Assembly: GCA_027491335.1 (NCBI GenBank) | Contig: JAIXWJ010000010.1 | Location: 1-38,868 of the forward strand | Reading direction: 5' to 3' | Origin: Actinomycetes bacterium | GTDB taxonomy: Bacteria > Actinomycetota > Acidimicrobiia > Acidimicrobiales > Ilumatobacteraceae | DNA: 38,868 nt | Shown: in pieces, positions 8,645 to 35,123 of the stretch | How the letters are laid out: each line of letters starts with the position of its first letter | Numbering within the stretch: position 1 is the first letter of the stretch | Position numbers and translations under genes: made by a program | The notes under the pieces: generated by a model | What the model was told of the DNA's origin: nothing | What the model saw: only the letters and a program-made list of their open reading frames with translations | The model's database searches: none

Positions 8645-9955
8645 ATGATCGATCGACGCATCGGTGAATTCCACGAGGCGATCGCATCGCTGCGACCGAC
8701 CGACACCTTGGCGATTCCGCTTGGTCCCGGCGTTCCCGGAGGGTTTCTGCACGCGTTGGGTGACTCGACCCCGACAGATCGTTTCGTCGACTTGAAGGTG
8801 TTCGGCGCGTTGTTGCCCGATCTCTTCTCGCTGTTCGGTCGTCCCTCCGTTCATCTGAAGAGCGGGTTCTTCGGGCCCGCCGAGCGATTCCTGCGCGACA
8901 CGGGGGCCGACGTGGACTTCGTTCCCGCGGACTTCCGGCGATTCGAGACCGTGTTGCACCGGCTGAAGCCACGGGTGGTGGCCGTGGCCGGTTCGATGCC
9001 CGTCGACGGGCGAATCTCGCTCAGCCTTCATTGTGGTGCGTTCACCGATGTCATCGCCGAGGTGATCGCCGATCCGAACCGGGTGCTCATCGTGGAATGC
9101 AGCCCGCATTTCCCGCGCACGTTCGGGGCCGGCGGATACGACCATTCCATTGCGGTGAGCGATGCCGATCACGTCGTCTTCTCGGATCGGGTCCCGCTGA
9201 ACCTCGCCGATGTGGCACCCAACGACGCCGAGCGCGTCATCGCCGAGATCGCGGTCTCGTTCATTCGTGACGGGTGCACCATCCAGACCGGTATCGGAGG
9301 CATCCCGACGCAGGTGGCCGCGCGTCTGGCCGCCGGTGACGGCGGCGACTACGGCATCCACTCGGAAATGTTCACGACGGGATTGATGCGACTCCATCAA
9401 GCGGGCAAGGTGACCAATCGCAAGGGAACCGAGTTCGACGGATTCTCGGTGACCACGTTCGCGGCCGGAGAACCGGCGTTGTACGAATGGCTGGACGGAA
9501 ATCGGGACGTTCGTTTCCTGCCGGTGGGCATCGTGAACTCGCCCGAGATCATCGCGCGTAATCGGGACATGGTCTCGATCAACGGCGCCATGGCGGTGGA
9601 CCTGTCCGGTCAGGTGGTGGCCGACAGCGTGCTGGGCAAGCAATTCTCGGGCATCGGCGGTCACGAGGACTTCGTGTCCGGTCCGGGGCTCTCGGACAAT
9701 GGGCGCAGTCTCGTGTGCCTGCCGTCTACAACGATGGTGGACGGAAAACTGGTGTCACGAATCGCGGGGCGCCTGCCCGAGGGAAGCGTGGTGACCACCC
9801 CGCGTCATCAGGTGGACGTCGTCATCACCGAGTTCGGGGCGGCCGAGATCGCTGGGCTGTCGATCAGTGAGCGGGCCCACGCGTTGGCGGCCATCAGTCA
9901 TCCGGACTTTCGCGACGAACTGAGCGCGACCGCCGACGTTTGGCCGAGTGACTGA
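8645..9955 (+). CDS. Acetyl-CoA hydrolase/transferase family protein (4-hydroxybutyrate CoA-transferase-like)
   Basis: A 436-residue member of the acetyl-CoA hydrolase/transferase family, which moves CoA between acyl groups or hydrolyses acyl-CoA through a glutamyl-CoA intermediate. Family features: TIQTGIGGIPTQVAARL, DYGIHSEMFTTGLMRL, SINGAMAVDLSGQVVADSV, then QFSGIGGHEDFVSG, and the C-terminal VVTTPRHQVDVVITEFG. The length fits the single-subunit members. The ATG lies 9 bases after the ABC-F stop, so co-transcription is likely, though no functional link between the two is apparent. Transferase versus hydrolase activity, and the acyl substrate, cannot be told from sequence. It ends 21 bases before the convergent GH130 gene. 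Confidence 0.87.
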   Translation: MIDRRIGEFHEAIASLRPTDTLAIPLGPGVPGGFLHALGDSTPTDRFVDLKVFGALLPDLFSLFGRPSVHLKSGFFGPAERFLRDTGADVDFVPADFRRFETVLHRLKPRVVAVAGSMPVDGRISLSLHCGAFTDVIAEVIADPNRVLIVECSPHFPRTFGAGGYDHSIAVSDADHVVFSDRVPLNLADVAPNDAERVIAEIAVSFIRDGCTIQTGIGGIPTQVAARLAAGDGGDYGIHSEMFTTGLMRLHQAGKVTNRKGTEFDGFSVTTFAAGEPALYEWLDGNRDVRFLPVGIVNSPEIIARNRDMVSINGAMAVDLSGQVVADSVLGKQFSGIGGHEDFVSGPGLSDNGRSLVCLPSTTMVDGKLVSRIAGRLPEGSVVTTPRHQVDVVITEFGAAEIAGLSISERAHALAAISHPDFRDELSATADVWPSD

Positions 9956-26474: not shown

Positions 26475-27503
26475 TCAGTCGACGGTGACGCCGGGAACGA
26501 ACAATCGCGAGGCGGCCGAACCACCATCGATGGCGTCGGCGGCCATGATCACCGCGGCCGCGGTGTAGGCCGTGCGTTCACCGTTCGGGAAGCGTTCCAT
26601 GGTGGGGTACACGATGCCGGTCCAGTAGCTGCCGTCGTCGTTTCGGTGGGCCCGGGTGCAATAGAGGAGTTCCATGGCGGTGTTCAGGTCACCCACGGCC
26701 ACGTGAGCCAGCGAGCATTCGGCCGTTTCGGCGGCGGTGACCCACGGCTCGTCGCTGACGCAACGGATGCCGCGTCCCTCCATGGCGAACGTTCCCCAAC
26801 TCTCGGCCAAGCGAGCCTTGGCCTGTTCGCCAACGAGGGCGTTGGTGAGCACGGGGTAGTACCAGTCCATGGCCCAACGCGCTTTGGGCTCGAACGCGTC
26901 CGGTTGAGTGGCGATCACGACGCGCAACACGTCGGCGGCTTCGCGCCATTCCGGTCGCGGGCGACCCACGAGGTCGGCCAGGTGGCTCGCGCACATCAGC
27001 GCGTGCCAGATGCTGCTGGAGCCCGTGAGCAACGCGTAGTCCCACGGCGAGGCGTGCTCCTCGCGGGCCCAGCGAATGGTGCCGTTCGGTCGACGCATCG
27101 ACATCACCCAGTCGATGGCGCGTTCAACGGTGGGAAACACGTGGTCGATGAACGCACGATCGGCGGTGGCGAGCCAGTGGTGCCACACGCCCGAGGCGAT
27201 GTAGGCGCACACGTTGGTGTCGAGTTTCGGTTCTTCGACCGTTCCGCTGGGCAGGTAGTAGTTGAACCACCAGCCGTCGGCGTGCTGGGTGTCGATCAGC
27301 CATTGGTAGGCGCGCTCGGCCTCTCGGTGGAAACCCGCCACGTCGAGGGCGATGGCGGTTTCGACGTGATTCCACGGATCGCAGTGGCCACCCTCGAACC
27401 ACGGAATCATTCCGTTGTCCAACTGCAGTGCGGCGATGGACTCGGCGGTGCGAACCACCTCGTCGGCGCTGAGCACTCCTTCGACGTGGGGCACGCGCGT
27501 CAT
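26475..27503 (-). CDS. Toroid-fold ('prenyltransferase-like') protein of a GT4-methyltransferase cluster
   Basis: A 342-residue helical protein with repeated helix pairs ending in aromatic-rich turns: IAALQLDNGMIPWFEGGHCD, DPWNHVETAIALDVAGF, LIDTQHADGWWFNYY, then DTNVCAYIASGVWHHWL and DGSYWTGIVYPTMER. These Q-x-x-DG and W-rich repeats suggest a terpenoid-cyclase/(alpha/alpha)6 toroid. Databases often call relatives 'prenyltransferase', but no DDxxD-type motif is evident, so I do not assign that activity. The ATG at 27503 overlaps the methyltransferase stop (ATGA). Its conserved place after GT4 and methyltransferase genes in actinobacteria suggests a part in modifying a glycan or glycolipid (inference). 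Confidence 0.8.
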   Translation of the reverse strand: MTRVPHVEGVLSADEVVRTAESIAALQLDNGMIPWFEGGHCDPWNHVETAIALDVAGFHREAERAYQWLIDTQHADGWWFNYYLPSGTVEEPKLDTNVCAYIASGVWHHWLATADRAFIDHVFPTVERAIDWVMSMRRPNGTIRWAREEHASPWDYALLTGSSSIWHALMCASHLADLVGRPRPEWREAADVLRVVIATQPDAFEPKARWAMDWYYPVLTNALVGEQAKARLAESWGTFAMEGRGIRCVSDEPWVTAAETAECSLAHVAVGDLNTAMELLYCTRAHRNDDGSYWTGIVYPTMERFPNGERTAYTAAAVIMAADAIDGGSAASRLFVPGVTVD

Positions 27504-28240
27504 CGGGCCACCGTCCGCGCCAGCGCGTTCTTGCGCGCGTACACGATCAGGCTCTTGCCCATCAACGGCGACAGGGCCTTCTCGGCCAACTTGACCGACT
27601 TCGGTTGTTTCATGATGTCCCACTCGAGGAATTTCTTGTAACCGTTCACCAGAGCGTGATCCTCGCGACGCGGGCCCACCGCGCACTTCAGCCACCAGTA
27701 CGGCGAGTGCAACGCGTGCGCGTGATGCGACCCCGTGACCGACAAGCCGGCCGAGCGAAGCTTGGCCTCCAGTTCGGTCTGGGAATAGATACGTACGTGT
27801 CCACCCACCGATTTGGGCGCGTGATATTCGTCGCTGAGCTTCCAGTTGATCTTCTCGGGCCACCACGACGGGACGGTGCACGCCAACGTTCCGCCGGGAC
27901 GCAGAACCCGAGCCAATTCGGAGATGGCGGCCACGTCGTTCTGGATGTGCTCGAGAACCTCGCTGGTGATGACGCGGTCGAACGTGCCGTCGGCGAAGGG
28001 CAGGCGGGTGGCGTCGCCGCGCAGGGCGCCCACGTAACTGTTCGCTTCGATCTGACCCTGCTCGATCATGGCTCCGAACGTGGCGCGCGTGGCGCGCACC
28101 TCGTCGTCGGCGTAGTCGAGAGCGACGATGCGACCACCCAAACGAGCCACCTCGTACGCGTGGCGTCCGAAGCCCGCGCCGGCATCGAGCACCAGATCGC
28201 CCGGGGTCAGACCCAAACGGGGGAAGCGAACGGTCAGCAT
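27500..28240 (-). CDS. SAM-dependent class I methyltransferase
   Basis: A 246-residue methyltransferase. Motif I is LVLDAGAGFGRHAYEVARL, motif II region IVALDYADDEV, then LRGDATRLPFADGTFDRVIT with SEVLEHIQNDVAAI and LRPGGTLACTVPSW. The C-terminal third (HVRIYSQTELEAKLRSAG onward) is typical of Methyltransf_11/25-type small-molecule or sugar methyltransferases. ATG at 28240 shares one base with the upstream GT4 stop (TGATG); its own stop overlaps the next gene by ATGA. Coupled synthesis with a glycosyltransferase suggests that it methylates a sugar or lipid-linked sugar (inference). Confidence 0.9.
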   Translation of the reverse strand: MLTVRFPRLGLTPGDLVLDAGAGFGRHAYEVARLGGRIVALDYADDEVRATRATFGAMIEQGQIEANSYVGALRGDATRLPFADGTFDRVITSEVLEHIQNDVAAISELARVLRPGGTLACTVPSWWPEKINWKLSDEYHAPKSVGGHVRIYSQTELEAKLRSAGLSVTGSHHAHALHSPYWWLKCAVGPRREDHALVNGYKKFLEWDIMKQPKSVKLAEKALSPLMGKSLIVYARKNALARTVAR

Positions 28241-29562
28241 CAGCCGATCCGTCCGTTGCGTCGCAGTTTCTCGCGGTTTGCGGGCATGGACAGCACTTCG
28301 CGGTACTGCTCGACGGTCATCTCGGCGCACTTGCGCCAGGTCCATCGTTCGACGACGCGATTGCGCCCGTTCTGTCCGACGCGGGCGCGCAATTGGGGGT
28401 CGTCCAGGCCGCGACGAATGGTCGTCGCGAGAGCCTCGGCATCACCGGCCACGCACTGCAACACGGTGTCGCCGTCGGTGCCGGTGACTTCGGGCAACGC
28501 ACCGCCGTCGGTGGCCACCAAACAGATGCCCGTGCACATCGCCTCGATGGCGGGGAGGCTGAATCCCTCGTAGAGCGAGGGGACCACGGCCATCTCGGCC
28601 TCGGCGTAGAGCTCGACGATGCGTTCGTCGGAGACACCCGACACGAACTGAATGTGCGGAGCCAGACCCAACTTGTCGATGAGATCCATGCTCTTGCCGG
28701 GCTTGGGCTTGCCGATGATGGTGAGGGTGACGTCGCGCTCGGTGCGCAGTTTGGCCACCGCTTCGAGCAGATACGAGAGACCCTTCAACGCGACGTCGGC
28801 CGAAGCGGTGGTGATGAGTCGACCGGGAATGCGCGAGACGTTCGGAAGTGGCTTGAACAGATCGGGGTCGACGCCCACGGGCACCAGTCGCATGCGGTCG
28901 TAGGACACGCCCATGTCGCCGTGAATGTCCTTGATGCTGTTCTCGCTCACCACGACGATGCGCGGCATGCGACTGGCCACGCGACCTTGCATCTTCACGA
29001 ACGAGTAGAAGCGCGACACTCCGAGTTTCTTCCACCAGTTGGGAGCATGATCCATCTCGAGTGCGCGGTCACGCGTGATGGGGTGATGCAGGGTGACGAT
29101 GGTGGGGATCATCTTCTCGAGTCCGAGGATGCCGTACCCGAGACATTGGTTGTCGTGGACCAGATCGAACTCGCCCACGCGAGTCGCGAGGTGACGCTTC
29201 ACGCGGGCGCTGAACGCCGCCGGTTCACCGAACGTGCCGGTGAGGAAGAGTCCGACTTCGTAGAGATCCTCGCGCGACTTCAACTCCCAGATGGCCGGGA
29301 AGCGGAAGGGGTAGTGGTCGTTGACGAGGTCGAGGCTCGGGAGTTTGGTGAGTGCGACGCGGTCGTCGAGAACCGGATACGGCTGACCGCCGAAGACTTC
29401 GACGGAGTGGCCGAGGTCGACCAAGGCCTTGGTGAGGTGACGGGTGTACACACCCTGACCGCCCACGTGCGGCTTGCCGCGGTAGGTGAGATAGGCGATG
29501 CGCAACGGCGAATCGGGGTCGAGGGGGTTGTGGGGTGACGCCGACCCCCGCGGTTGTGACAT
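28240..29562 (-). CDS. Family 4 glycosyltransferase (second copy type)
   Basis: A 440-residue GT-B enzyme. The N-terminal half has LRIAYLTYRGKPHVGGQGVY (G-GQGVY loop contacting the donor) and LVHDNQCLGYGILGLEKM, with LHHPITRDR. The C-terminal half has LITTASADVALKGLSYLLEA, LTIIGKPKPG, and the E-x7-E type motif PSLYEGFSLPAIEAMCTG. It differs clearly from the GT4 at 12474-13676, so the two are not recent duplicates. It leads a coupled three-gene set with a methyltransferase and a toroid-fold protein. A cytosolic hexosyl transfer to a lipid or glycan is likely; donor unknown. Confidence 0.92.
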   Translation of the reverse strand: MSQPRGSASPHNPLDPDSPLRIAYLTYRGKPHVGGQGVYTRHLTKALVDLGHSVEVFGGQPYPVLDDRVALTKLPSLDLVNDHYPFRFPAIWELKSREDLYEVGLFLTGTFGEPAAFSARVKRHLATRVGEFDLVHDNQCLGYGILGLEKMIPTIVTLHHPITRDRALEMDHAPNWWKKLGVSRFYSFVKMQGRVASRMPRIVVVSENSIKDIHGDMGVSYDRMRLVPVGVDPDLFKPLPNVSRIPGRLITTASADVALKGLSYLLEAVAKLRTERDVTLTIIGKPKPGKSMDLIDKLGLAPHIQFVSGVSDERIVELYAEAEMAVVPSLYEGFSLPAIEAMCTGICLVATDGGALPEVTGTDGDTVLQCVAGDAEALATTIRRGLDDPQLRARVGQNGRNRVVERWTWRKCAEMTVEQYREVLSMPANREKLRRNGRIG

Positions 29563-29639: not shown

Positions 29640-31547
29640 TCAGCAGGACGACGGCCGGGTCACCTTGGTGCCCGCGGTGGTGGTCAGGCCGTTGCGGTCG
29701 GTGGCCGTCACGCTCACCGACACCGCGCTGGTCGTGCCGGGGATGTTCGTGCTCGCGCCGACCCACGAGCCCTTGCCCGAATCGGTCAGGGTGATGGTTC
29801 GGGTGGCCGGGGTCAAACCTCCGGTGAAAGTGGCGGTGGCCAGCACGCTCTTGAGCGGCGACTCGTCGGACACCGGAACCTGGATGGAGACATTGGCGCA
29901 CGAGGCCCCGCCGAACCGCAGGGCGATCGTGCCGACCTGTGGGGGGCGGCCAATCGAGCCGAGAAGTCGCAAGGTGGTGGTGGGTGCCCCGGTGGCGGTG
30001 ACGCGCGCCGCCACGTTGAAGCGTCCCTCGGGGAACGACGCGGAGTTGGAGTACGACGCGGCGACGGAACGCGCGAAGGTGACGGTGATCGTGACGGAGG
30101 CGCCCTTGGCGAGCGTGCCCGCCGACGGGCCGAACGTGAAGAACGATGGTTGTGCCGAAGCGATCTTCCACGGCACGGCCGAGGCATTGGGGTTGGTGAG
30201 TCGCAAGGTGGCCGTGGTGCCCATGGTGGAGAAGTCGAGGGCCGACGCGCTCACGCCGAGCGCGACCAGAGCCGAGGGCTTGGTGGTTGTCGCACGCGGG
30301 ATCGTTGTGGTCGCCGTTCCGGACGAGACGGCGGTCGAAGGAACGTTCGTCGGTGACACGGGGGTGGACGACACGGGGGTGGACGAATCAGGGGTTGGTG
30401 ACACGGTGGGCGGCGGAGTGGGCAATGGAGTGATGCCGGCCACGGTGGTGATCGGTGTCTCCGTTGGTGTGGTCTCTGTCGATGTCACGGGGGACCCGTC
30501 GGCGATGGTGATCGATGAGTCGTTGTTCGCAGAATCGTTGCTCGCGGGCGCCGAATCCGTGCTCGCGAGCATGATGACCGAACCGGTGGCCACCAACATC
30601 ACGACTCCGATGGCCCACCACCCACCGCGTCCGAGGATTCGTGACGCCCGCGGGAATCCGTCGCTCGGGCGCAGACGAATGCGCGAGGTATATCCGCTTC
30701 TGCCGTTCGTTCCACCGTTCGTTCCACCGTTCGTTCCACCGTGCGAACTCGGGGTCGGAATCTTCGACGTCGCCTCCAGCACGCGTTCGCGCAGTCCGAG
30801 CGGTGCGGCCAACACCGGTGCCGCGCCGAACAGCGCCAACGGAGCGACCTTGCCCTTGGTGCGCGCGCACGTTTCACAGGATTCGATGTGTCGGGCCACG
30901 CGCTTGCGGATGAGGACGTTGAACTCGCCGTCCCAGTCGCGCAGGATCTCGTCGAGCGTGGAGCAGTCACGACGACCGGCCTTGGCGACCACGAACGCAC
31001 CGAGGCTGCGATCCACGCGTTCGCGCATTCGATGGACCATCGAGTAACTCTGCTCGGGCGTGACGCTCAGCGCGTCGGCGAGGTCCGCGCCATCGAGACC
31101 CTGACGAATGGACAGCTCCAGGATGAGTTGGTCGCGCTCGTCCAACCCGGCCGCCGCCGCGCGAACGAGCGAGGCCAACTCGGCGAAAGCCACCGACGCA
31201 CCCTCGGCGCCGGGGTCAGTGGGGGCGACCACGTCGGGAACCGTCTCGGATTGGAAGTCGGTGGGCGTCGTGCGACGGCGACGCTTGGTGCGTCGGTACA
31301 CCTCGTTGCGCAGAACGGCGTACAACCACGGCTTGAGGCGTTCCGGATCGCGCAGTTGACCCAAGCGCTCGGCCGCGATGCAGAAGACGTCCTGCACCAT
31401 GTCGGCGGCATCGTGACGATCCGAGAGCATGGCCGCTGCGGTGTCGTACAGGCCCGCGGAGTAGCGGTCGTAGATGGCGGCCAGAGCGGTTCGATCGCCG
31501 GCCAGATGAGCGGCGACGAGTTCGGCGTCGGAAAGGGTCGTGGTCAT
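29640..31547 (-). CDS. Membrane-tethered ECF sigma factor fused to a zinc-finger anti-sigma motif and extracellular domains
   Basis: A single 635-residue chain with an unusual order. Residues 10-90 are sigma region 2 (LAAIYDRYSAGLYDTAAAML, DMVQDVFCIAAERL, WLYAVLRNEVYRRTKRRRR). Residues 130-185 are region 4 (LDERDQLILELSIRQGLDGA, then SYSMVHRMRERVDRSL). Residues 220-227 carry H220-x3-C224-x2-C227, the zinc anti-sigma signature. A GGTNG-repeat linker (269-282), one membrane helix (about 308-328), a Ser/Thr/Pro linker (about 330-425) and two beta-sandwich regions (about 428-518 and 525-635) follow, the last ending in Cys. The sigma part should thus face the cytosol and the C-terminus the outside. 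How sigma is freed (proteolysis or conformational change) is unknown. ATG at 31547 starts the sigma fold; an upstream start would add 23 Cys-rich residues. No separate anti-sigma gene is adjacent. Confidence 0.9.
   Translation of the reverse strand: MTTTLSDAELVAAHLAGDRTALAAIYDRYSAGLYDTAAAMLSDRHDAADMVQDVFCIAAERLGQLRDPERLKPWLYAVLRNEVYRRTKRRRRTTPTDFQSETVPDVVAPTDPGAEGASVAFAELASLVRAAAAGLDERDQLILELSIRQGLDGADLADALSVTPEQSYSMVHRMRERVDRSLGAFVVAKAGRRDCSTLDEILRDWDGEFNVLIRKRVARHIESCETCARTKGKVAPLALFGAAPVLAAPLGLRERVLEATSKIPTPSSHGGTNGGTNGGTNGRSGYTSRIRLRPSDGFPRASRILGRGGWWAIGVVMLVATGSVIMLASTDSAPASNDSANNDSSITIADGSPVTSTETTPTETPITTVAGITPLPTPPPTVSPTPDSSTPVSSTPVSPTNVPSTAVSSGTATTTIPRATTTKPSALVALGVSASALDFSTMGTTATLRLTNPNASAVPWKIASAQPSFFTFGPSAGTLAKGASVTITVTFARSVAASYSNSASFPEGRFNVAARVTATGAPTTTLRLLGSIGRPPQVGTIALRFGGASCANVSIQVPVSDESPLKSVLATATFTGGLTPATRTITLTDSGKGSWVGASTNIPGTTSAVSVSVTATDRNGLTTTAGTKVTRPSSC
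30703..30738 (-). repeat. Three 12-bp tandem repeats encoding GGTN units
   Basis: CCGTTCGTTCCA occurs three times in a row (30703-30714, 30715-30726, 30727-30738). It encodes the G-G-T-N linker between the zinc finger and membrane helix of the sigma fusion protein. Slippage could change the tether length in steps of four residues. Confidence 0.85.
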
Positions 31548-31586
31548 GTTCGTTCGGTCGCCGCACGGATTGCAGGAGGAGGACCC

Positions 31587-31600
31587 GCGAGGAACCTCGC
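31587..31600. promoter_or_regulatory. Inverted repeat upstream of the sigma fusion gene
   Basis: GCGAGG-AA-CCTCGC is a perfect 6-bp inverted repeat with a 2-base centre, 40 bases before the ATG at 31547. It contains GGAAC, the core of many ECF-type -35 elements, on the plus strand. It could be an operator or part of a self-regulated promoter, or chance in GC-rich DNA. Confidence 0.3.
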
Positions 31601-31632
31601 ACAAAGTCTGCCCCAAATCCGAGCGAGGTCGC

Positions 31633-34481: not shown

Positions 34482-35123
34482 TCAGACGTCGACCTGTCGT
34501 GAATAGTTGGCGACCACGACGATGCGTTCCCGCGTGGATCCGGGGGGATGGCACGCGAAGAGTGTCAGCGTGGCGTCGGTCGTCTGGTCGATGATCCAGA
34601 CGTCGGTGGGTTCGACGATGAAGGTTCGGTCGACGACGTACACGAATTCGCCATCGGCCGACGACAAGAAGATCTCGTCGCCCGGTTGCAGTTGGTCGAT
34701 GTTGCGGAAGGGCTTCTTCTTGCTCATCCGATGCCCACCGAGAACGACGTTGCCCACCTGGCCGGGCATCGCGGTTCCGGGCCACCAACCCACTCCCTTG
34801 TCGAGAGTCGGCAAGGTGACGCCTCGATACAAGACCTGCATCACGTCGATACGCGGAATGGCAAGGGCGCCCACGATGACCTCGGGCTCGATGGCGTCCT
34901 CCGGTGGGATGTTCTCCGGCTGAGGCAACGTGCCGCCGGGCGCGAGCGTGGGCGGTCCGGAGTACACCGTGGTGGTGGTCGATGTGGATGTGGTGGTGGG
35001 GGCCGCCGTCGTGCTGGTGGCGGCCAGGGAGGTGGTGGACACCATCACTTCCTCGCCCGATGCGCAACCAACGAACAGGGCGGGGGTCAGAACGACCAGA
35101 GAAACGGCAACGGCTCGGAACAC
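34482..35123 (-). CDS. Class-E-like sortase with a lipobox
   Basis: A 213-residue sortase. The catalytic residues are H131 (VLGGHRMSKKKPF), C191 (TLTLFACHPPGSTRER) and R198; the TLxxCHP...R spacing is that of class E sortases of actinobacteria, which attach surface proteins to the wall. The N-terminus is unusual: a hydrophobic segment ends in LFVGC at residues 16-20, a plausible lipobox instead of the normal membrane anchor, followed by a Thr/Ser linker (29-53). If lipidated it would be held outside the membrane by a lipid. It starts at GTG 35123, 4 bases after the oxidase gene, and is followed by lnt. A possible substrate in the window is the LPTTG protein at 13673-15781. Confidence 0.88.
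   Translation of the reverse strand: MFRAVAVSLVVLTPALFVGCASGEEVMVSTTSLAATSTTAAPTTTSTSTTTTVYSGPPTLAPGGTLPQPENIPPEDAIEPEVIVGALAIPRIDVMQVLYRGVTLPTLDKGVGWWPGTAMPGQVGNVVLGGHRMSKKKPFRNIDQLQPGDEIFLSSADGEFVYVVDRTFIVEPTDVWIIDQTTDATLTLFACHPPGSTRERIVVVANYSRQVDV

Follow-up and report, generated by a model that had tools for sequence, protein, structure and literature searches.

How can a sigma factor reach RNA polymerase when it shares one polypeptide chain with a zinc anti-sigma domain and a membrane helix? This question is raised by a gene in a 38,868-nucleotide stretch of DNA, called the window below, from a member of the Ilumatobacteraceae (assembly GCA_027491335.1, contig JAIXWJ010000010.1). On the minus strand, an open reading frame (ORF) begins with an ATG at 31547, ends its last codon at 29643 before a stop at 29642-29640, and encodes 635 amino acids, in which a sigma factor of the extracytoplasmic function (ECF) type is followed by a zinc anti-sigma domain, a membrane helix, a linker and two outer domains of immunoglobulin-like (Ig) fold. 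The product is read here, with a probability of about 0.7, as a membrane-tethered, self-inhibited and autoregulated ECF sigma factor that would be released by proteolysis and would control sortase-anchored surface proteins. What goes beyond a first-pass annotation of this DNA is the self-promoter motif, the link with surface proteins and sortase, and the presence of soluble orthologues at the same locus.

Anatomy and conservation of the one-piece sigma factor

The first-pass annotation had described one unbroken frame joining sigma regions 2 and 4, a zinc anti-sigma motif, one membrane helix, a Thr/Pro linker and two beta-sandwich domains. It did not state the strand; its coordinates match the minus-strand ORF, and the plus-strand reading of 29640-31547 is ruled out by the stops that it contains. 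The anatomy is confirmed by the 635-codon frame and its single-frame orthologues, as well as by domain profiles, the sequence itself and structural models, and the membrane helix within the single chain does tie sigma to the membrane. The annotation had also considered that a frameshift or sequencing error might join two genes. Such an artefact, mis-assembly of a sigma and an anti-sigma gene included, has next to no chance of being the explanation, since one-frame orthologues occur in many genomes, including on contigs of 4.8-5.0 Mb from the family (G035, G091, G402), which equally rules out a chance fusion. Nothing in the window favours it, and one relative shows the reverse, namely a frame change inside the Thr/Pro linker (genome G023; L005 and L083). 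The absence of any other anti-sigma gene nearby also stands: the zf-HC2 matches of the genome sit on other contigs, one on C46, adjoining a stand-alone sigma gene, and a weak one, below cut-off, on C59.

The N-terminal part contains sigma regions 2 and 4 and no region 3, as defines ECF sigma factors, according to TIGR02937 (sigma70-ECF; residues 21-179, E 4e-17, over cut-off), the Pfam region 2 family and the model; the Pfam matches to region 4 (E 0.029) and to zf-HC2 (E 0.35) both stay below cut-off. Behind it, the motif HIESCETC at residues 220-227 is completed by C195 to the ligand set C-x24-H-x3-C-x2-C, which together with the helices at residues 196-242 corresponds to a class I zinc anti-sigma (ZAS) domain, and from which we infer zinc binding. 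All four ligands are invariant in alignment A4, for which 120 rows of a deduplicated set of 127 were used (L007, L016, L027-L030 and L046 were left out, and L001 was replaced by the window protein). Because these rows were admitted by HxxxCxxC, with either C or H allowed at the position of C195, only the constancy of C195 is a free result. A second hydrophobic stretch (residues 234-252) coincides with the conserved segment that follows the zinc motif.

The structure of residues 1-259 was predicted. The model, built from 120 relatives, has a mean predicted local distance difference test score (pLDDT) of 81 and a predicted template modelling score (pTM) of 0.76. Its best solved match is SigW with the zinc form of RsiW (E 5.6e-5; template modelling score, TM-score, by target length 0.81-0.83); CnrH-CnrY aligns at 0.79 and RpoE-NepR at 0.69-0.71, and the polymerase-bound ECF sigmas among the matches listed give 0.34-0.47. 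As the best fold match is SigW-RsiW, sigma 2 and sigma 4 are predicted to be closed in the manner of that complex, and the modelled fold is consistent with inhibition in cis.

Matches were found in 40 of the 61 near genomes searched. Within the 24 genomes of the genus, the gene has a complete one-frame long form in 14, is cut by a contig end in five, changes frame in the linker in one and is short and soluble in four. Farther out, 109 of the 396 genomes of a phylum sample match at E 1e-12, many of them by the sigma part alone. The genome scan gave 336 relatives, the best 80 of which were kept and 79 analysed (L142 was lost); these best 80 of 336 belong to Ilumatobacteraceae, Nocardioides, Aeromicrobium, Mycolicibacterium, Actinophytocola and others. 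Two of 20 additional stretches (L161, L162) gave no ORF with the zinc motif. Deduplication left 125 distinct relatives, 124 of them with the zinc motif, a count that is partly self-selected, as 16 of the 17 Streptomyces-type proteins had been picked by this motif; "Streptomyces-type" is a working label for one family code (f58), assigned from the architecture. The 125 comprise 107 complete long proteins (37 from Ilumatobacteraceae, 21 Nocardioidaceae-type, 17 Streptomyces-type, 8 from Mycobacteriaceae and 24 others), four soluble proteins, 13 cut by a contig end and one with a frame change, the last two groups being left out of the helix, Cys and Gly-Phe-Pro (GFP) motif counts below. L109 is without the zinc motif, and its frame departs from that of the relatives inside the motif. 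Public records titled Bifidobacterium breve (L067, L069, L078) carry genes of the Ilumatobacteraceae genus, and their titles look wrong.

The outer part varies in its domain content: BACON or HYDIN-type Ig domains are found in one Nocardioides protein and two family members, CAP, AbfB and BACON domains in the Streptomyces-type proteins, and Pro-rich tails in Mycobacteriaceae. The first-pass annotation had called the combination with a large Ig-like outer part uncommon. This appears too strong, because the layout is known (ECF48, ECF52 and ECF53; IutY) and widespread, all 107 complete long relatives having a hydrophobic stretch with a hydropathy of at least 1.5, with varied outer domains that include ASH/BACON-like Ig folds. 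The sequences of linker and helix differ widely among these relatives. The GFP motif ahead of the helix is present in 37 of 37 Ilumatobacteraceae proteins, 11 of the 24 others and 2 of 17 Streptomyces-type ones, and in none of the 21 Nocardioidaceae-type or 8 Mycobacteriaceae proteins. In the window protein, residues 431-532 match PF24507 (2.1e-5), PF00635 (5e-5) and PF22544 (3.8e-4), all just below cut-off, and the solved structures that Foldseek ranks best for the full-length model come from ciliary central-apparatus proteins and from pilus chaperones of the PapD type; both outer domains are ordered in this model, and the membrane helix is not modelled as a helix. C550 and C635 may form a disulfide pair, and a Cys lies within the last six residues of 34 of the 37 complete Ilumatobacteraceae proteins and of all 21 complete Nocardioidaceae-type ones.

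In a FastTree phylogeny with a midpoint root and long branches, the window protein is nearer to Mycolicibacterium and Nocardioidaceae than to the Streptomyces-type proteins (forks 86-87); the 17 Streptomyces-type rows fall on two branches, a long one with 15 rows and another with two, both apart from the window clade.

A shared upstream motif and the genes behind it

A redundancy filter brought the upstream regions of 146 relatives down to 100, which were searched for a bipartite motif. Starts were set at whichever Met or Val codon lay close to the alignment, so that some distances to start are approximate. The search converged on aaAagTGt.AG - 16 nt - CTCt, with a total score of 1677.6 against 1137.1-1163.0 in ten shuffled sets given an equal 150 starts. 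The 16-nt spacer is found in 79 of the 100 best sites, and the score is at least 15 in 62 of them. A control motif from coding regions (score 2543.5) was useless, because those regions are homologous. A cross-family test used 75 of the 100 regions: trained on 32 Ilumatobacteraceae regions, the motif beats 99% of shuffles in 14 of 20 regions from Nocardioidaceae and Pseudonocardiaceae, and, trained on these 20, it passes in 13 of the 32. A putative bipartite promoter, AAAnTGnnAGR-N16-CTCY, is thus common to Ilumatobacteraceae and Nocardioidaceae, and we infer from its position and conservation that the sigma factor itself may read it.

Further copies of the motif suggest that this sigma turns on cell-surface proteins. 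The exact pattern TTTNTGYSAGR-N16-CTC has two sites in the own genome, one before the sigma gene and one at C52:19595, directly in front of a secreted protein that ends with LPMTG, a hydrophobic stretch and arginines. This Asp/His-rich protein (G000:C52:19595-20464, L165) has an LPXTG anchor domain that is over the NCBIfam cut-off and below that of Pfam. In the 24 genus genomes, the exact pattern has 22 sites against one for the reversed-pattern control, of which 6 precede the sigma gene, 10 a member of the LPMTG surface-protein family and 6 others. Among the ten surface proteins, seven have LPMTG in frame, one is cut at the locus end and two (G010, G019) are tailless. Another pattern, in which the second box is longer, gives 14 sites against one control site (two sigma genes, the same ten surface proteins and two others). 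By protein search, the surface-protein family occurs in 14 of the 24 genus genomes, a cut copy in G006 having been missed by the search.

The same picture extends to other lineages. With the local form of the motif, 27 sites against one control site were found in 14 genomes reached via Nocardioidaceae and related loci, lying before 6 sigma genes, 7 sortases, 9 anchored Pro-rich surface proteins and 5 large secreted proteins; four of the seven sortases were tested and all reach the Pfam cut-off, two being nearest to NCBIfam class F, below its cut-off. When one mismatch was tolerated, 13 Ilumatobacteraceae genomes gave 22 sites and the control gave none; 7 of these sites precede sigma genes, 5 WhiB-type regulators, 5 secreted proteins that carry a C-terminal helix followed by a basic end, and 4 either lipoproteins or small secreted proteins, with 1 site unassigned. 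LPxTG-type motifs are carried by two of these five secreted proteins, and the WhiB-type regulators stand directly behind the motif (L245, L255, L263, L264, L265), all four that were tested matching in Pfam. Unless Pfam or NCBIfam is named, target classes were read from translated frames. Since the patterns were written from self-promoters, the sigma-gene sites are expected and the other targets are not.

Sortase genes also recur beside the sigma gene. About 3 kb upstream of it, 17 of the 24 genus genomes have a sortase that shares its contig and strand; that of the window has class E as its best match, below cut-off, and is one of four sortase genes in the genome. In Nocardioidaceae-type loci, a sortase follows on the same strand within 350 nt downstream in 12 of 20 cases, and both Actinophytocola loci have one at 0.8-0.9 kb.

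Within the genus, four genomes (G020, G013, G022, G018) have soluble orthologues in the same gene order (L027-L030). These proteins of 249-250 amino acids end soon after the zinc motif and lack the segment that follows it, the membrane helix and the ectodomain; the zinc motif is kept, region 2 has diverged, and the ratio of nonsynonymous to synonymous substitution rates (dN/dS), 0.21-0.29, indicates purifying selection. The self-promoter was not found upstream of these genes (one of the four was scored in the motif set), and protein search found the LPMTG surface protein in 0 of these 4 genomes versus 14 of the 20 other genus genomes; for independent genomes, 0 in 4 would have a probability of about 0.02, but the four are related and incomplete. 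An accompanying loss of sortase is not supported, as G018 and G022 keep the neighbouring gene. Three of the soluble-sigma genomes contain a near-identical exact motif match (TTTTTGTGAGACC...CATCTC; L173, L176, L178), with no assigned ORF behind it.

On the other side of the sigma gene, glycosyltransferase and methyltransferase genes follow downstream in conserved order (window 26475-29562), and most Ilumatobacteraceae loci whose flanks are long enough retain this gene order. Control of these genes by the same kind of site was considered and rejected, a position weight matrix (PWM) having found no site before the glycosyltransferase gene on its strand. Inverted repeats can be seen by eye in the gap before that gene. 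Compared with the nearest relative, the glycosyltransferase is 98% identical versus 74% for the sigma protein. The gene after the glycosyltransferase and methyltransferase genes matches an oligosaccharide amylase model far below cut-off. The features of the locus are collected in Table 1.

Table 1. Features of the one-piece sigma locus, in window coordinates
Feature	Positions	Strand	Basis
Whole gene (sigma, zinc anti-sigma, membrane helix, linker, ectodomain)	29640..31547	-	Open frame; one-frame orthologues
Sigma region 2, residues 7-92	31272..31529	-	Pfam PF04542, E 1.2e-9; helices 7-92 in both models
Sigma region 4, residues 115-190	30978..31205	-	TIGR02937 to residue 179; model helices; Pfam below cut-off
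Predicted zinc anti-sigma domain and following helix, residues 195-259; ligands C195, H220, C224, C227	30771..30965	-	Motif, alignment
GFP motif (DGFPR), cytoplasmic, residues 297-299, about 13 residues before the membrane helix	30651..30659	-	Conservation
Membrane helix, residues 312-330	30558..30614	-	Hydropathy 2.04 over 19 residues
Thr/Pro-rich linker, residues 331-428	30264..30557	-	Sequence; mostly pLDDT <50
ASH/HYDIN-type Ig domain, residues 431-532	29952..30257	-	Pfam matches just below cut-off, model, Foldseek
Terminal Ig-like domain, residues 540-635	29643..29930	-	Model; Cys positions
Putative self-promoter, CTTTGTGCGAGG-N16-CTCCTGCAA, 59 nt before the ATG	31570..31606	-	Bipartite motif search, cross-family test, pattern searches
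Class E-like sortase gene, about 2.9 kb upstream, candidate linked function	34482..35123	-	PF04203, 1.5e-32; TIGR01076 over cut-off

Proposed release of sigma and the alternatives

In the resting state, as modelled, the zinc domain would close sigma 2 and sigma 4 in cis, and the helix would keep sigma at the membrane. The outer Ig-like domains may then sense a signal that leads to cleavage outside the cell, followed by cleavage within the membrane helix, and the freed cytoplasmic fragment of sigma and zinc domain, once trimmed or opened, would join RNA polymerase. From promoters of the shared type, released sigma would transcribe its own gene together with a small surface set, which would comprise sortase-anchored and other secreted proteins, together with a class F-like sortase in Nocardioidaceae and WhiB in other Ilumatobacteraceae. 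By analogy, cleavage is the likeliest mode of activation, having been shown for IutY and proposed for ECF48, ECF52 and ECF53 in the portions of PMC8999054 drawn on here. Regulated intramembrane proteolysis is a possible route, as two genes of the M50 site-2-protease family in the genome permit it.

Several results weigh against this scheme. No site-1 protease or signal was identified, and the full-length model is poor (pLDDT 65, pTM 0.33). The sigmaE-RseA, AlgU-MucA, SigK and SigE-ChrR structures align to residues 1-259 at 0.43-0.50, hardly above the polymerase-bound sigmas. The general PWM is nonspecific when used alone, with four plus-strand matches of at least 14 in the window and a match at 8794 (18.2) that exceeds the self site (18.0) and sits inside an ORF. 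In the own genome, allowing one mismatch gives 5 matches versus 9 for the control, which is chance level. Of the 22 genus sites, the six listed above as others have no assigned target, and the homologues in G010 and G019 have no LPxTG tail in the frame read. The cross-trained motifs pass in none of the 17 Streptomyces-type and none of the 6 Mycobacteriaceae regions, and the regulon is therefore not phylum-wide. As for the sortases, the PWM scan found no site of the self-promoter type before the window gene, which is thus linked by position alone; 8 of the 20 Nocardioidaceae-type loci have no downstream sortase, and in two soluble-sigma genomes the sortase stays beside a gene that has lost its sensor.

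The alternatives address different steps, so that their probabilities need not sum to one. Sigma might act at the membrane without any cleavage, a change in shape transmitted through the helix opening the zinc domain and letting the tethered sigma engage RNA polymerase. Residues 259-311, between zinc domain and helix, form a long stretch of low model confidence that would leave room for this, and the GFP motif kept throughout Ilumatobacteraceae could be a contact rather than a cleavage site; yet the widely variable sequences of linker and helix argue against it, no precedent among ECF fusions was met in the portions of PMC8999054 consulted, and the worked example given there, IutY, is cleaved by Prc and RseP, so that action in place looks quite improbable. 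The zinc domain might instead be the sensor, with cytoplasmic oxidation or zinc loss freeing sigma as in RsrA or ChrR and the outer part merely serving as an anchor. The conserved ligand set speaks for this, as do the Pro-rich tails in which the Mycobacteriaceae forms end and the four same-locus orthologues, which keep the zinc motif without helix and ectodomain and are under purifying selection. However, the near clades keep the Cys-ended outer part, the motif occurs in about half of membrane-bound class I anti-sigmas, with a structural role according to the authors of PMC7406223 in the portion consulted, and the soluble forms may have another role, because the segment after the zinc motif and the self-promoter are gone as well and the surface protein was not found in their genomes. 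Zinc-based sensing is on this balance rather unlikely.

A different sigma factor might also read the shared promoter and control the surface genes along with this one, the targets of the one-piece sigma lying elsewhere. The connection between motif and sigma is indeed one of position and co-occurrence, and the genus sites with no assigned target fit this explanation too. Against it, the motif is kept upstream of the sigma gene in two distant families, the sortase close behind sigma in Nocardioidaceae-type loci is preceded in several genomes by a separate copy of the site, and PMC5826349 (in part) describes autoregulation as a common trait of ECF sigmas and suggests it for SCO4117. Control by another sigma is accordingly judged unlikely. 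The preferred reading of a proteolytically released, autoregulated sigma can be carried one step further, tentatively, to a possible feedback circuit of two distant lineages: the outer Ig-like part would read the state of the coat or wall, and released sigma would make coat protein, sortase (in Nocardioidaceae), WhiB (in other Ilumatobacteraceae) and itself, the loss of the sensor in four genomes taking the self-promoter and the coat protein with it.

Comparison with known systems

For one-piece actinobacterial sigmas, the literature examined gives one studied member, no known signal and no agreed promoter. A promoter conserved in two families together with surface proteins and sortase opens this class to tests in culturable relatives such as Nocardioides, Aeromicrobium and Ilumatobacter, and hints at the way in which such bacteria may control their surface coat. 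No one-piece sigma with a sortase regulon was found in searches of openly licensed literature, and neither was a family-shared promoter with a sortase and surface set, few papers having been examined in detail.

The layout itself is not new, because ECF48, ECF52 and ECF53 of Actinobacteria and IutY have already been described. In the three actinobacterial groups, sigma is fused to a zinc finger and to long extensions, with one or two membrane helices, and activation is expected to be proteolytic (PMC8999054, in part); like them, the window protein unites a sigma domain and a zinc finger with a membrane helix and an extracytoplasmic extension in a single chain. Membership of ECF48 is a lead only, drawn from the tree, as the ECF48 example of PMC8999054 comes from Mycolicibacterium, near the window protein. 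The outer carbohydrate-binding domain behind a proline-rich linker that characterizes ECF52 was not found, no such Pfam family being present in the window protein, whose outer part consists instead of an ASH/HYDIN-type Ig domain and a two-Cys terminal Ig domain. The Streptomyces-type proteins, which may include ECF52 members judging from their architecture, branch apart from it in the FastTree phylogeny with its long branches.

IutY of Pseudomonas putida (ECF243) likewise has a membrane anti-sigma fused to the C-terminus of sigma and works by regulated proteolysis (PMC8999054, in part). It belongs to Gram-negative iron-starvation cell-surface signalling, and the comparison is one of layout, not of sequence. 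The SigW-RsiW pair of Bacillus subtilis provides the best structural match of residues 1-259; there, as in other pairs of ECF sigma and zinc anti-sigma, two proteins are involved, in contrast to the single chain found here.

A parallel in function comes from SCO4117 of Streptomyces coelicolor, the studied ECF52 member, whose proline-rich linker and outer domain resemble the layout of the window protein and whose loss lowers the transcripts of chpA and of other chaplins and rodlins (PMC5826349, in part). Long chaplins are sortase-anchored (PMC13251363, in part), and the targets predicted here are sortase-type surface proteins as well. The link between SCO4117 and chaplins comes from expression after knockout, whereas the present one comes from promoter motif and gene neighbourhood, and the published motif, CSGYN-17-SRHA, differs from that found here. 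The effect of SCO4117 on chaplins may thus be regarded, despite this difference in motif, as an independent parallel to a tethered sigma that would govern the coat of the cell.

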